Shown here piece after piece: positions 2,887 through 8,612 of a stretch of 64,000 nucleotides of DNA. Under the pieces are notes generated by a model. That model was not told the DNA's origin and did no database searches. It saw only the letters and a program-made list of their open reading frames with translations. Within the stretch, counting starts at the first letter, position 1. Every line of letters starts with the position of its first letter. Origin of the DNA: Brachyspira murdochii DSM 12563. Its GTDB lineage: Bacteria; Spirochaetota; Brachyspiria; Brachyspirales; Brachyspiraceae. The translations under genes were made by a program, and so were the position numbers. The stretch covers positions 1,636,919-1,700,918 of the forward strand of contig NC_014150.1 in NCBI RefSeq assembly GCF_000092845.1, given 5' to 3'.

Positions 2887-4284
2887 ATGAGCATTTTTGA
2901 TTTAAAAGGTAATTTAATGAATGATGAGGACGGTTTAAAAGTTGTAAGTGGTTCTAGTTATAAAGTAAGAATAGCAAAAACAAAAAATAGAAATGAGAAA
3001 ATAGATTTCTCTTCTGATGATGTTAAAGGAAAATATTTAATATATCCTTCTCAAGTGGGACTTACTCCTGCTACAGAATCAATGAGTAAGGAATATATAG
3101 GATCTCCTTCTTCTGAAAGTTATGCTGGAGCTACCACTTATGCAGGAGATATTTCCTACGGGGCTTTTCCAAATTCTAATGCATACTATGCGAGTTTAAT
3201 ATGGGCTAATGTGCATACAAAAGAAACATCTGGAAATCTACTATGCATTAACTCTTTTAATAATTTTGCCATTAGATTTAATAAGTCTTCAGAAGATGAA
3301 AGTATTAATATGCTTGAAATTATAATAGAAGAAGATGATGGTTATAGCAGTAATTTTATTGATATTTATACTTCTATGAAGCAGAAAGATTTGATTGATG
3401 CTTTAAATAAAATAACAAATGTAAAAGCATTTTTAATAACAGGAAGCGAAGAAGAAGAGATTGATTTTACCAATATAATAAATGAATTAAAAGAGTATAA
3501 TACGGAAAACAATAAAACAGAATATTTACTTAGTTTTAAAAGAGTAGGACTCATAGAGAGCGGAGTATTTACAGAAGAGAGTAAAAAGAAATATCCAAAA
3601 TATCAAAGCATAATACACCCGCGATTTGGAGAGGCACAATATTATAATATAGCTTTGTATGACAGTTCAAAGAATATGGACGGAAATCAATATATAGGCT
3701 GCGAAAGTAAATCAATTAATTTTAATTTTGCAAATAAGGCTATGACAGAAATAAGTTCTTCATTATGGGCTTTGGACGAAGAAAAAATAGATAAAGATGC
3801 AGTTTTATATGAAGAGAGAGCAGAAGAAAGAGATGTTGTAATGGCACAGACTTCTAAATATCCTACTAAACTTTTTATTAATGGAACAGAGGCTTCTTCT
3901 GTAAGTGATGTTGCTTTATTATTTGAATGGACTAAAGAAGAGAAGTTTAATATTTCAGCAAAGAGATATGGTTTTCCAAATTCAAAGTTTACACTTAGTT
4001 TTTCAGGCAATGCAGTTTTTAATGCTCAGTCAAAAGAGCTTTTTTATGACAGGGTTTTAAATGGAGACAAGCAGTCATTTATAATATCATCAAAAACAAG
4101 ATTTAAAAATAAAGATTATCCATTTGTGTTTGTAAGTTCAGATGTAGGAGGAAGCCCTTCATTTCCAGCAATAGAGCCTAAAGAGCTTTCAATATCTTTA
4201 AATAATTTTAAGGCAGCAGAGCAGTCAAATGATATGAACAGTAATTATTTGATAGCATTTACAGATAGGGAGGATTTATTTTGA
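2887..4284 (+). CDS. Probable phage tail tube (major tail) protein
   Basis: A 465-residue soluble protein. The stretch near residues 55-95 (V-G-L-T-P-A-T-E-S-M followed by a G-A-T-T-Y-A-G-D-I-S-Y-G segment and a P-N-S-N-A-Y-Y-A-S-L segment) has the layout of the Phage_tube_2 type of tail-tube protein, in which an early G-S-I/L strand precedes the first inter-subunit beta-hairpin. It is directly upstream of the putative tail-chaperone frameshift pair and the tape-measure-like gene, the normal phage order. It is longer than typical 200-350 residue tube proteins, so an added surface domain is possible. No strong Shine-Dalgarno is seen. Confidence 0.6.
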   Translation: MSIFDLKGNLMNDEDGLKVVSGSSYKVRIAKTKNRNEKIDFSSDDVKGKYLIYPSQVGLTPATESMSKEYIGSPSSESYAGATTYAGDISYGAFPNSNAYYASLIWANVHTKETSGNLLCINSFNNFAIRFNKSSEDESINMLEIIIEEDDGYSSNFIDIYTSMKQKDLIDALNKITNVKAFLITGSEEEEIDFTNIINELKEYNTENNKTEYLLSFKRVGLIESGVFTEESKKKYPKYQSIIHPRFGEAQYYNIALYDSSKNMDGNQYIGCESKSINFNFANKAMTEISSSLWALDEEKIDKDAVLYEERAEERDVVMAQTSKYPTKLFINGTEASSVSDVALLFEWTKEEKFNISAKRYGFPNSKFTLSFSGNAVFNAQSKELFYDRVLNGDKQSFIISSKTRFKNKDYPFVFVSSDVGGSPSFPAIEPKELSISLNNFKAAEQSNDMNSNYLIAFTDREDLF

Positions 4285-4676: not shown

Positions 4677-4950
4677 TAAATTGTCATAAACTTTTGGTGA
4701 AAAAATTAAGGAGTATATAAAATCTCCTTATATTTTTGAACCTATGACAATGTAATTGTCATAGCCTATCAGTAAAAAAAATTAAGGAGTATATAAAATC
4801 TCCTTATATTTTTTGAACCTATGACAATGTAATTGTCATAGCCTATCAGTGAAAAAAATTAAGGAGTATATAAAATCTCCTTATATTTTTTGAACCTATG
4901 ACAATGTAATTGTCATAGCCTATCAGTGAAAAAAATTAAGGAGTATATAA
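4677..4950 (+). repeat. Tandem 76-77 bp leader repeat carrying ribosome-binding sites and two hairpins per unit
   Basis: AAGGAG occurs at 4708, 4784, 4861 and 4938, giving a period of 76, 77 and 77 bp over three full units plus a partial one. Each full unit holds a 7-bp stem pairing TAAGGAG with CTCCTTA followed by a T-run, and a perfect 10-bp inverted repeat CTATGACAAT/ATTGTCATAG. In the last copy the CTCCTTA arm is missing and AAGGAG instead serves as the ribosome-binding site of the gene at 4951. The first three copies are therefore decoy sites inside terminator-like hairpins. Confidence 0.9.
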
Positions 4951-5307
4951 ATGGAAAAGTTAGAATTTAAATGCATTGACTTTTTTAATAGATATATTGT
5001 AGAAGAAATTGTTTATAAAGATGACGGAGAAAATATTGTACCTGTTAAGATCTTTAGCCGTTCTACTTTAGGCAGTAAGTTTAAAAGTGATGATGTTATA
5101 AGTATTAATCGTCCTAGCTTTAATGAAAATATCAAATATGTAAGAGAGAAAGAAGAGAAGATTATTGATGATGATATTTTTAAATGGCTTGATGTTAGAA
5201 TAAATGGTGTTCTTGCGGTAAGTCTTCTTGATGAATGGAGTACAAAGGATATTAATGAGTTCGCTCAAGTGATAAAAAGTTTTTTGCTAGAGAGAAGAAT
5301 TATGTAG
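4951..5307 (+). CDS. Probable phage tail assembly chaperone (gpG-like)
   Basis: A 118-residue acidic protein between the tail-tube-like and tape-measure-like genes, the fixed position of lambda gpG-type tail assembly chaperones, which bind the tape measure during tail assembly. AAGGAG at 4938 is its ribosome-binding site. Twenty-one bases before its stop codon, the in-frame heptamer T TTT TTG (5280-5286) would allow -1 slippage into the next ORF, giving a 219-residue fusion. The chaperone assignment comes from position plus the slippery site; the sequence itself is not recognised. Confidence 0.6.
   Translation: MEKLEFKCIDFFNRYIVEEIVYKDDGENIVPVKIFSRSTLGSKFKSDDVISINRPSFNENIKYVREKEEKIIDDDIFKWLDVRINGVLAVSLLDEWSTKDINEFAQVIKSFLLERRIM
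5280..5286 (+). promoter_or_regulatory. T TTT TTG slippery heptamer for -1 ribosomal frameshifting
   Basis: The heptamer has the X XXY YYZ form in the phase of the upstream ORF (codons AGT TTT TTG). A -1 slip would continue as GCT AGA GAG and so on, open to the stop at 5609. The downstream frame is open from 5259, so the two ORFs overlap across the site exactly as a programmed frameshift needs. Confidence 0.6.
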
Positions 5308-5609
5308 CAAGTAATTTGTCTCATTTCTCTATAATAGAGCAGACAGAAATTGATAATCTTACCCATTATGCTTTTAATAATAGAGAAGTTAAATATGATG
5401 ACTTTTGTTATTTTGATAATGGGCTTATAAGTTTGTATACAGCTTCTTTGTTTTGGAATAAAATAATACTTGAGGCTTGGTATCAGATAATAAGCGGAAG
5501 ATTTGTATATTGCCGTTATGATGACGATGATTATTTGAGATTAGGTCTTAATTATGCTATTTTTAGATTTAAGATTTTGATAGATAAAACATTAAATAAT
5601 AATAATTGA
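5286..5609 (+). CDS. Downstream half of the tail assembly chaperone, probably made only as a frameshift fusion (gpGT-like)
   Basis: About 107 codons in the -1 frame relative to the upstream gene. The only internal starts are a TTG at 5316 and later codons, with no ribosome-binding site ahead of them, so independent translation is unlikely. As a -1 fusion it extends the upstream protein to 219 residues, comparable in plan to lambda gpGT. The T-domain of such fusions recruits tail tube subunits. Function is inferred from position and architecture. Confidence 0.55.
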   Translation, partial: AREKNYVASNLSHFSIIEQTEIDNLTHYAFNNREVKYDDFCYFDNGLISLYTASLFWNKIILEAWYQIISGRFVYCRYDDDDYLRLGLNYAIFRFKILIDKTLNNNN

Positions 5610-5664
5610 TTTAATATATAAAATAATGTATTATAGGAAATAATATTAATTATATGAGGGAATG

Positions 5665-5979
5665 ATGAAAAAGTTAATTATATTATTTTTATTATCAATA
5701 GTATTCATATCTTGCCGCTATGGTTTTACATTTTATGATTTGGGCGGAACTTGGAAAAAAAATGGAAGTACTGAAACATTTATAGTTGATACATCATCTA
5801 AAACTATAGTAAAAGGAAATTTAACTTGTACTATTAATGGTGAAATACCAGAAACAAAGTCAAATATATTTAAAGTAATTCTTATATCTGGCAGCATTAA
5901 TGTAGGAAGCATAACATTTACAAGTAAAACAGAAGCTAATGGAACTGATGATTTTTATGGAAATTGGACTAAGCAATAA
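5665..5979 (+). CDS. Small predicted lipoprotein within the phage block
   Basis: A 104-residue protein with a lysine-started hydrophobic leader and a lipobox ending F-I-S-C, so it should be lipid-anchored. GAGGG at 5656-5660 favours the second of two adjacent ATGs (5665). The mature part is short, with a G-T-W and a closing Y-G-N-W pair that resemble a small beta-barrel. A similar ending W-x-x-x-x-G pattern occurs in the lipoprotein at 56976. Lysogenic conversion genes are often placed inside tail modules, but a chromosomal gene stranded by decay is equally possible. Confidence 0.65.
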   Translation: MKKLIILFLLSIVFISCRYGFTFYDLGGTWKKNGSTETFIVDTSSKTIVKGNLTCTINGEIPETKSNIFKVILISGSINVGSITFTSKTEANGTDDFYGNWTKQ

Positions 5980-6055: not shown

Positions 6056-7204
6056 ATGAATAAAAATATTTATGATACAAATAAAGAATTACAGAATATA
6101 GAAGAAAGTATAAAGAAAATAAATTCGGCATATGAAAAATCTTCATTTTTTAGTTCAAAAGATTCTTTTGATGAGTTTTCAAGTTCAGCAGCGGAGGCAA
6201 AAACTTCAATAGACAATATAGAAACTTCTATAAACTCACTTGATAATAGTATAAATAAAGCTGATATAAAAAGCTTTTCTAGTGAAATAAAAGACTCTCT
6301 CTCAAGCATATCAAGTATATATAAGGATTTAAGTGCTAGTTTTTCAGATTTTTTTCATTATGATTTAAGCTCTTATGATAATGCAATAGAAGAAGCTAAG
6401 AATAAGTTACAGGAGTTTGATGATTATCAAAAAGAGTTAAGAGAAAATAAAAAAACTCAAGATGCTGAGGATTATGAAAATTATTTATCAAGGCTTGATG
6501 AAGAGCTTGAACTTGCTATTGAAAGCAAAGATGTCATGAGTGCTGAAGCTATACGCATAAAGCAGGAAGAGTTAAAAAAGAAACAAGAAAAGGAAAAAGA
6601 AGATTTACAGAAAGAAAAAGAGATAGAAGTTCAAAGAGAATTGCTTGAAAAACAGCTTGCACAGGCAGAGTATAATAAAGCATATGCCGAGTGGGATAAT
6701 GAAGTAAAACTAGCAGAAATGGAGAAGTCAAAGGCAATAGCGGATGCTGTGTTGATACCTTCGCTTGCTATAGCACAATCTGCTTTGGGAGTTGCATCTT
6801 CATTTGCTCAGGGCGGACCTGTTGGTTTTGCCGCTGGGCTTGTAATATCGGCTACTGCAATATCATCTGCCATTTCTGCAGCTTCTGGTATAGTGTCATC
6901 AGCTAATGCTTTAGACAGTGTAAAATCTAATCCGCCTAAGGCTCCGCAGTTTGCATTTGGTACAACAGGATACATTATTCCAGACGGAGGTTCTGCTATA
7001 GTAGGGGAGATGGGAGCAGAGATTGTAACAAATAAAGCTGGTAAAATACAAGTTCAAAGTAATGCTCAGTTACAGGAGAGAGGTTTTTCTAAAGGTGATA
7101 TTTGGAATGTTACTATTAATGTTGAACAGGCTTTAAATCCTGATGAGGTTTATAAACTTATGAATAGTTATAAGGCAAGAAACAGTCAGATGTATGCTAG
7201 ATAA
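6056..7204 (+). CDS. Short tail tape-measure-like protein
   Basis: A 382-residue protein. Residues 1-200 are largely alpha-helical with long coiled coils (many E-L/K-E repeats). Residues 225-285 form an alanine/serine/glycine-rich hydrophobic patch. Residues 300-335 carry the typical C-terminal tape-measure motif (F-G-T-T-G-Y followed by G-G-S-A-I-V-G-E-M-G-A-E and a V-T-N sequence). Tape measure proteins set tail length and are threaded through the tube. This one is much shorter than most, so it may be an internally deleted gene or belong to a short tail. It is the last recognisable phage gene in the block. Confidence 0.65.
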   Translation: MNKNIYDTNKELQNIEESIKKINSAYEKSSFFSSKDSFDEFSSSAAEAKTSIDNIETSINSLDNSINKADIKSFSSEIKDSLSSISSIYKDLSASFSDFFHYDLSSYDNAIEEAKNKLQEFDDYQKELRENKKTQDAEDYENYLSRLDEELELAIESKDVMSAEAIRIKQEELKKKQEKEKEDLQKEKEIEVQRELLEKQLAQAEYNKAYAEWDNEVKLAEMEKSKAIADAVLIPSLAIAQSALGVASSFAQGGPVGFAAGLVISATAISSAISAASGIVSSANALDSVKSNPPKAPQFAFGTTGYIIPDGGSAIVGEMGAEIVTNKAGKIQVQSNAQLQERGFSKGDIWNVTINVEQALNPDEVYKLMNSYKARNSQMYAR

Positions 7205-7494: not shown

Positions 7495-8046
7495 ATGAAA
7501 ACAAAAATATTTTTAATACTAATGGTGATAATATTTGCAGTATCATGTACAAAAAATAATCCGGTAAATCCTGTAAATATTTCAAACAATGGCGGAGAAA
7601 ATAATAAAATAGAAAGCGGCAATAATTTTGAAACAAAGGATAATACATCATCTTCACAAGGTTCAGATGGTTCAGAAAATGAAGTTAATACAAAGGCTTC
7701 TAATGTTAACGAAGATATAGAAGATATATATATAAAAGAACCGATATCAATATTTGAGGGAGAAGGTGAATATTCAATAGATGGTGCAAAATTTCAAGAT
7801 AAAGAAAATATCAAAATAGAAATTTATGATGATTGTATAGAGGTATACAGATCAGCTAAGTATTTTAGATTTGATATAACTGAACAAGATAATAAATATA
7901 ATTTAGAGAAGTATCAAGGTTCAGAAAGACATACTTTAGATATGACAATTAACGGAAATACAGCTTCAGTTACTTATACTATTACTGTACAAGGACATAG
8001 AAATGAAAATTATCATTTCCATTCTGATAGTTTGACTAAAAAATAA
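7495..8046 (+). CDS. Predicted lipoprotein, tandem paralogue 1
   Basis: A 183-residue protein with a K-T-K-I-F leader and a lipobox ending A-V-S-C, then a long N/S/G/E/D-rich linker (residues 20-75) and a C-terminal beta-rich domain. AAGGA precedes the start. It shares its leader, the C-T-K-N-N-P signature, the linker style and the final domain pattern (M-T-I-x-G near the end and a Q-G motif) with the next gene, so the two are a tandem duplication. The function of this family is unknown. The preceding 290 bases (7205-7494) hold only AT-rich sequence. Confidence 0.75.
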   Translation: MKTKIFLILMVIIFAVSCTKNNPVNPVNISNNGGENNKIESGNNFETKDNTSSSQGSDGSENEVNTKASNVNEDIEDIYIKEPISIFEGEGEYSIDGAKFQDKENIKIEIYDDCIEVYRSAKYFRFDITEQDNKYNLEKYQGSERHTLDMTINGNTASVTYTITVQGHRNENYHFHSDSLTKK

Positions 8047-8069: not shown

Positions 8070-8612
8070 ATGAAAACAAAAATATTTTTAATACTAATAA
8101 TGATAATACTTGTAGTATCGTGTACAAAAAATAATCCTGCAAACCCAGTTAATGTTTCAGGAAATAGTAGCGGCAATACTGAAATAAAAGATACATCCTC
8201 TTCAGATAATCAAAAAAATTCAGATAATAATACAGCTAATGATAACGGTGCGGAAAATTCAGATACTAAAAGTTATGAAAATCATTATAATGATAGAGCT
8301 TCTGTATATAAAGGTACGGCAAAACATACTATAAGAATTGAAAATGTTACTACACAGCCTGAAGATGTTGAAATATATGCTGATATATATGAAGATGAAA
8401 ATACTATTGAATTGTATGTACCAAAAAGAATATTATTTGAAAATGCCAAAAAAGAAAACGGCAAGTATAACTTAATGAAAACAGAAGACGGAAAAACGTA
8501 TATATTGTCTATGACTATTTCAGGCGATTCTATATCTAATTTTGATCTTACTATACAAGGACAAGGAGAGACAGCATATATCAAAGCTGATAAATTGAAT
8601 AAAACAGAATAA
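8070..8612 (+). CDS. Predicted lipoprotein, tandem paralogue 2
   Basis: A 180-residue lipoprotein (lipobox V-V-S-C) starting 24 bases after its paralogue, with the same AAGGAAATAAAAAA-ATG start context. The leader and the first 15 mature residues are nearly identical to the upstream copy, whereas the charged linker and C-terminal domain have diverged. Likely surface or periplasmic facing and co-transcribed with its neighbour. No function is recognised. Confidence 0.75.
   Translation: MKTKIFLILIMIILVVSCTKNNPANPVNVSGNSSGNTEIKDTSSSDNQKNSDNNTANDNGAENSDTKSYENHYNDRASVYKGTAKHTIRIENVTTQPEDVEIYADIYEDENTIELYVPKRILFENAKKENGKYNLMKTEDGKTYILSMTISGDSISNFDLTIQGQGETAYIKADKLNKTE

Follow-up and report, generated by a model that had tools for sequence, protein, structure and literature searches.

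A probable programmed −1 frameshift in a tail-gene pair of the Brachyspira gene transfer agent

Introduction

The use of a −1 frameshift for tail building is a textbook mechanism of tailed phages, and gene transfer agents are virus-like particles used by cells to swap DNA. In phage lambda, the proteins gpG and gpGT are made at a ratio of about 30:1 and direct tail assembly, as described in passages of PMC5009743, which also cite Xu, Hendrix and Duda 2004 for a conserved −1 frameshift in the tail genes of dsDNA phages. The gene transfer agent of Brachyspira, VSH-1/BhGTA, is described in passages of PMC4955376 and PMC9662315 as a cluster that carries a lysin, flanked by mcpB and mcpC.

The frameshifting mechanism is thus already known; for its presence in the Brachyspira gene transfer agent we found no published report. 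The titles and abstracts that we found in the literature on VSH-1, Brachyspira, RcGTA and gene transfer agents describe no frameshift in the Brachyspira agent, nor is one mentioned in the available passages of PMC9662315, PMC2897892, PMC8845278, PMC3532143, PMC4603578, PMC4955376 and PMC11409702.

Here we analyse a gene pair of Brachyspira murdochii, at positions 4951–5609 of the window (the whole 64-kb stretch of DNA studied), together with its homologues in the genus. An initial annotation had proposed a programmed −1 frameshift in a prophage tail-chaperone pair at this place. On our comparison of sequences, a −1 slip of the ribosome very probably makes a single, longer protein from the two overlapping genes.

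Results

The first gene of the pair, ORF A (4951–5307, on the plus strand, as are the heptamer, the −1 extension, the SD sequence, the leader array, the tube-like and tape-measure-like genes, the capsid-like gene and the small gene at 5662–5979 described below), starts with an ATG preceded at a distance of 7 nt by the Shine-Dalgarno (SD) sequence AAGGAG (4938–4943), and its normal reading gives a gpG-like product of 118 aa. The slippery heptamer T TTT TTG lies at 5280–5286, in phase with the zero-frame reading AGT TTT TTG, in which the last base of AGT is the first of the heptamer, and is followed after 18 nt (21 counting the stop codon) by the TAG of ORF A. The open −1 frame spans 5259–5609, and its T-like extension beyond the slip (5286–5609) comprises 107 codons plus the stop. 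The only start-type codon of this second ORF ahead of its conserved core is a TTG at 5316, which is without an SD sequence, and translation with a −1 slip at the heptamer yields a fusion of 219 aa. The bases therefore bear out what had been annotated here, namely the heptamer in correct phase near the ORF A stop, the open downstream frame, the lack of an ATG or ribosome-binding site for the second ORF, and the length of the fusion.

In a single genome such a heptamer is weak evidence and only mildly unusual, because 17.4% of 15-codon stretches of the 34 long ORFs of the window contain one or more X XXY YYZ sites in phase; TTTTTTG or TTTTTTA in phase occurs in 1.5% of these stretches in this AT-rich DNA. 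In contrast, conservation of the heptamer throughout the genus is strong evidence at the sequence level. We searched 26 Brachyspira species genomes with ORF A and with the −1 part and found ORF A in 22 of them and the −1 part in the same 22. One genome carries two copies, giving 23 loci, not counting a weak match of the −1 part that falls within an ORF of 661 aa (L047) and was dropped, and a profile search of the 26 genomes returned no further homologues of the pair. Relatives outside Brachyspira were sought among 392 Spirochaetota genomes, where the −1 part was matched in 22, all belonging to one of 167 genera.

An in-phase slippery heptamer is present inside the ORF overlap in 23 of 23 loci, and in none of them are the two parts fused in frame. 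Of the 21 close loci, 20 carry TTTTTTG and one carries TTTTTTA, while the two diverged loci (L022 and L023; identity of 29% in ORF A and 39–40% in the −1 part) have AAATTTC, also a canonical heptamer, in phase like the others and 21 nt before the stop. The slip site has thus turned over within the genus, TTTTTTG against AAATTTC. The alignment of Brachyspira homologues proposed in the initial annotation accordingly shows the heptamer and the frame relation kept or functionally replaced in every locus, with drift among the 21 close loci in the adjoining Leu codon, for which four synonyms are used. The site codons AGT and TTT are invariant in all 21 close loci, which we take as supporting evidence only, because 17 of the 61 invariant degenerate columns likewise use a single codon.

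The distance from the heptamer to the conserved E(Q/E)xE core of the −1 part is 50, 38, 35 or 32 nt and equals 2 modulo 3 in all 23 loci, so that insertions and deletions in the linker have preserved the phase that couples the two frames. In one locus (L021) the −1 frame is kept shut by a TAA and opens only 3 nt ahead of the heptamer; as no start codon follows, the heptamer is the only plausible entry to it. Relative to the B. murdochii genome, dN/dS was 0.06–0.28 for ORF A and 0.11–0.46 for the −1 extension in 20 close loci, and 0.47–0.60 in the two diverged loci, where divergence is high. As judged from these ratios, ORF A is under purifying selection, and selection acts on both parts.

A stimulatory structure or an upstream SD sequence is frequent, but not universal, in −1 frameshifts at X XXY YYZ sites, and a heptamer with Z = G offers a weaker A-site than one with Z = A. 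No conserved stimulatory RNA structure was found downstream of the heptamer, the consensus fold having an energy of −1.19 kcal/mol and no compensatory pairs. The 45-nt stretch downstream gave a mean z of −1.9 that was very uneven between loci: it folds better than shuffled sequences in the pilosicoli-like group (z of −4.1 to −5.2), z lies below −4 in four loci, and it is near 0 in several others. An upstream CAGGTGA is not strictly conserved among the loci, and a search of Rfam gave matches at chance level only.

The surroundings identify the element. The window opens with the 3' end (1–429) of a major-capsid-like gene, a weak match to a PHROG major head family, and the whole gene (L048:16305–17348) encodes 347 aa. 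Upstream of the window also lie two mcp-like genes and a GH19-type lysin gene, its family having been scored on the homologue in L071. The capsid gene was found in 21 of the 26 genomes at 48–100% identity, the 48% match (G003) being partial. Of 21 near-complete genomes, 19 have both the pair and the capsid gene, and G001 and G012 have neither. A tape-measure homologue is still present in G012. Neither the capsid gene nor ORF A had a match in the phage collection. The locus is therefore not part of an ordinary prophage, as had been annotated, but of the Brachyspira gene transfer agent of the VSH-1/BhGTA type, to which we matched it by published description: the cluster is genus-wide and vertically kept, and lysin and mcp-like genes accompany its capsid gene.

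Upstream of the pair lies a tail-tube-like gene of 465 aa (2887–4284), a weak match to Pfam Phage_tube_2 (E 0.0043, below the cut-off). Downstream follow a small lipoprotein-like gene (5662–5979), with a homologue at the same place in G021, and a tape-measure-like gene of 382 aa (6056–7204), a weak match to a PHROG tape-measure family (E 0.0033), whose 883-aa relative in L071 matches a PHROG tape measure at 5.6e-6. The pair had been placed between the tube-like and tape-measure-like genes. In the window it does lie there, with about 667 nt, including a tandem repeat array, between the tube-like gene and ORF A, and with the lipoprotein-like gene intervening on the other side. The gene position expected for gpG/gpGT is nevertheless less fixed across the genus than had been assumed, since a tape-measure gene follows nearby in only 9 of the 23 fetched stretches, some of which end at contig ends. 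In G004, G006, G007 and G025 it lies about 31–36 kb from the pair, and in the pilosicoli-like loci housekeeping genes come after the pair. Because the tape-measure gene is often distant and other genes follow, the conserved unit is the pair and not its neighbourhood.

Two adjacent paralogous lipoprotein-like genes (7495–8046 and 8070–8612) follow the tape-measure-like gene in the window, and their homologues follow it in G008 and G015. Diverged tail modules in L071 (G022:C50) and L072 (G021:C148) contain a tube gene, a pair with AAATTTC and a tape-measure gene of 883 or 801 aa, in genomes that also carry a tape-measure gene of standard size elsewhere. The module of L071 adjoins a gene transfer agent capsid gene of 93% identity, which suggests an exchange of tail modules and perhaps a longer tail. 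In G009 the tape-measure gene (C2:97986–99088) is split into two pieces with stops; the gene transfer agent of this genome may be decaying, or the split may be an assembly error.

By the tape-measure rule of 1.5 Å per residue, 382 aa would correspond to a tail of about 57 nm. The BhGTA tail is given as 65 nm, close to this value, in passages of PMC9662315, and the TP901-1 regression found in passages of PMC5099701 would give a tail shorter than the 1.5 Å rule does; as rule and regression disagree, we draw no conclusion on tail length from the 382 aa.

ORF A is preceded by a tandem leader array (4679–4951) of 3.6 copies of a 77-bp unit, in which each full unit holds an SD/anti-SD hairpin, formed from an SD copy and an anti-SD (CTCCTT plus a T run), and one palindrome (4744–4762, 4821–4839 and 4898–4916). 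The last SD copy is the real SD of ORF A, which the leader could sequester. The palindrome occurs three times in this genome, always here, with up to two mismatches allowed. The exact hairpin pattern was found 16 times in the 26 genomes, in nine of them, each time no more than about 270 nt ahead of ORF A, whereas the reversed control pattern gave no match in the same genomes. With looser matching, which left out the leader of L099, a hairpin lies within 100 nt of ORF A in 12 of the 23 loci, that of L087 being a variant nearer the start. The copy number of the unit varies between species.

When 17 units from 10 loci were aligned, the favoured structure was one in which the anti-SD pairs with the SD that lies downstream of it, so that the palindrome is enclosed; two of its base pairs show compensatory changes (A-U/G-U/G-C at one, C-G/U-A at the other). 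If the anti-SD pairs instead with the SD copy upstream, the pairing is no less complete, yet no pair has changed on both sides. In 9 of the 10 loci the energies of these two states lie within 1.5 kcal/mol of each other, a near-equality that follows in part from the repeat itself; for this reason, and because the units of one locus are not independent of each other, we offer a leader switch as a hypothesis and not as a result. Under this tentative and rather doubtful proposal the gene would be subject to two translational controls, the −1 slip setting the product ratio and the locus-specific leader acting as a bistable on/off switch, in which decoy and true SD compete for one anti-SD (CTCCTT), tuned by the repeat copy number between species. 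If true, it would give on/off control of chaperone output and hence of particle assembly.

Discussion

A programmed −1 frameshift is, on the comparative sequence data, by far the best reading of the locus, because each of the 23 loci keeps, or replaces by a functional equivalent, the slip site, the phase, the overlap and the lack of an independent start for the second ORF, a possible but unconserved start codon being present in 7. With a probability of roughly 0.87, we propose that ORF A and the −1 ORF belong to a single recoded gene of this gene transfer agent, expressed as a fusion through ribosome slippage; by analogy with lambda, it would serve as a tail chaperone. Most ribosomes would complete ORF A and release the gpG-like product of 118 aa. 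A minority would shift into the −1 frame at U UUU UUG, with both tRNAs re-pairing on UUU, and would continue to the gpGT-like fusion of 219 aa, so that the ratio of short to long form would be fixed by the slip rate. Both forms, the short one abundant and the long one rare, would then cover the tape-measure protein and bring in subunits of the tail tube, as their lambda counterparts do.

The frame break has been weighed against three other explanations. The second ORF could be a gene of its own, reached by ribosomes that reinitiate, or through coupled translation, where ORF A stops, and the heptamer a coincidence. A proper start for this ORF, which like an in-frame fusion had been named in the initial annotation as evidence against a frameshift, has a possible counterpart in 7 of the 23 loci, in the form of a start-type codon of the −1 frame ahead of the core (TTG and ATG in three loci each, GTG in one); in two of these the ATG forms TAATG with the stop of ORF A, and in L008 there is a GGAG 14 nt upstream. 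However, no ATG, GTG or TTG precedes the core in the remaining 16, and those that exist stand at differing positions, with no conservation among the 23. Moreover, reinitiation would not require the phase between the two ORFs to be kept through linker indels, as it is, and we therefore consider it improbable. Slippage of RNA polymerase on the T6 run, with the fusion made from edited transcripts, is a still weaker candidate: six consecutive T are found in 21 of the 23 loci, which is short for transcriptional slippage, and the two diverged loci have A3T3, with no homopolymer at the site that exceeds this length, yet keep the same frame relation. That a single gene has simply decayed through a frameshift mutation, or been mis-sequenced, is refuted as far as these sequence data go, since all 23 loci share the same break and dN/dS is low for ORF A and the extension alike, even if genes of these agents do decay, as in the split tape-measure gene of G009.

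There is a small but real chance that the frameshift serves not a tail chaperone but another assembly or head-tail factor. No match to known chaperone families was found with Pfam/NCBIfam for the proteins of the window or with PHROGs for the 23 members of A1 and A2, and searches of PDB sequences, the phage collection and IMG/VR with ORF A and the −1 part gave nothing usable. ORF A was modelled with a pLDDT of 90.8, and its fold search returned no match at E<=0.001 in PDB or BFVD and none with Z>=2; this search covered ORF A, the −1 part being modelled poorly (pLDDT 61.6). The downstream neighbour also varies between species. On the other hand, a gpG plus gpGT architecture with a tube-like neighbour is a hallmark of tail chaperones; such a gene lies upstream of the pair in 16 of the 23 stretches, and the diverged modules L071 and L072 keep it together with the pair and the tape-measure gene. 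We thus infer the annotated chaperone role from position and architecture, by analogy with lambda, whereas the sequence searches with the pair and the fold search with ORF A led to no known chaperone.

If the pair is indeed a recoded tail-chaperone gene, our data indicate that a domesticated gene transfer agent has retained, across the genus, the recoding by which its phage ancestor fine-tuned the assembly of tails, and this retention argues for selection on working tails. The gene pair also offers a target for work on whether the particles are still functional, for instance in B. murdochii.

Among described gene transfer agents, RcGTA likewise has two tail-chaperone genes, g10 and g10.5, according to passages of PMC11409702; unlike the Brachyspira pair they are described there as two genes, and the word frameshift is absent from the available text of that paper. 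The element itself resembles VSH-1/BhGTA (family Brachygtaviriformidae) as portrayed in passages of PMC9662315, in its genus-wide, near-single-copy capsid gene, its GH19 lysin, the mcp genes by the cluster and the rearranged gene order, and those passages make no mention of a frameshift or a tail chaperone. The Brachyspira pair differs from lambda gpG/gpGT in its heptamer, in showing no detectable similarity of sequence or fold, and in lying inside a gene transfer agent whose tape-measure gene is often elsewhere in the genome. It nevertheless shares with lambda the overlapping ORFs after a tube-like gene, the heptamer near the end of the first ORF and, as predicted, a −1 extension that gives a short and a long product.
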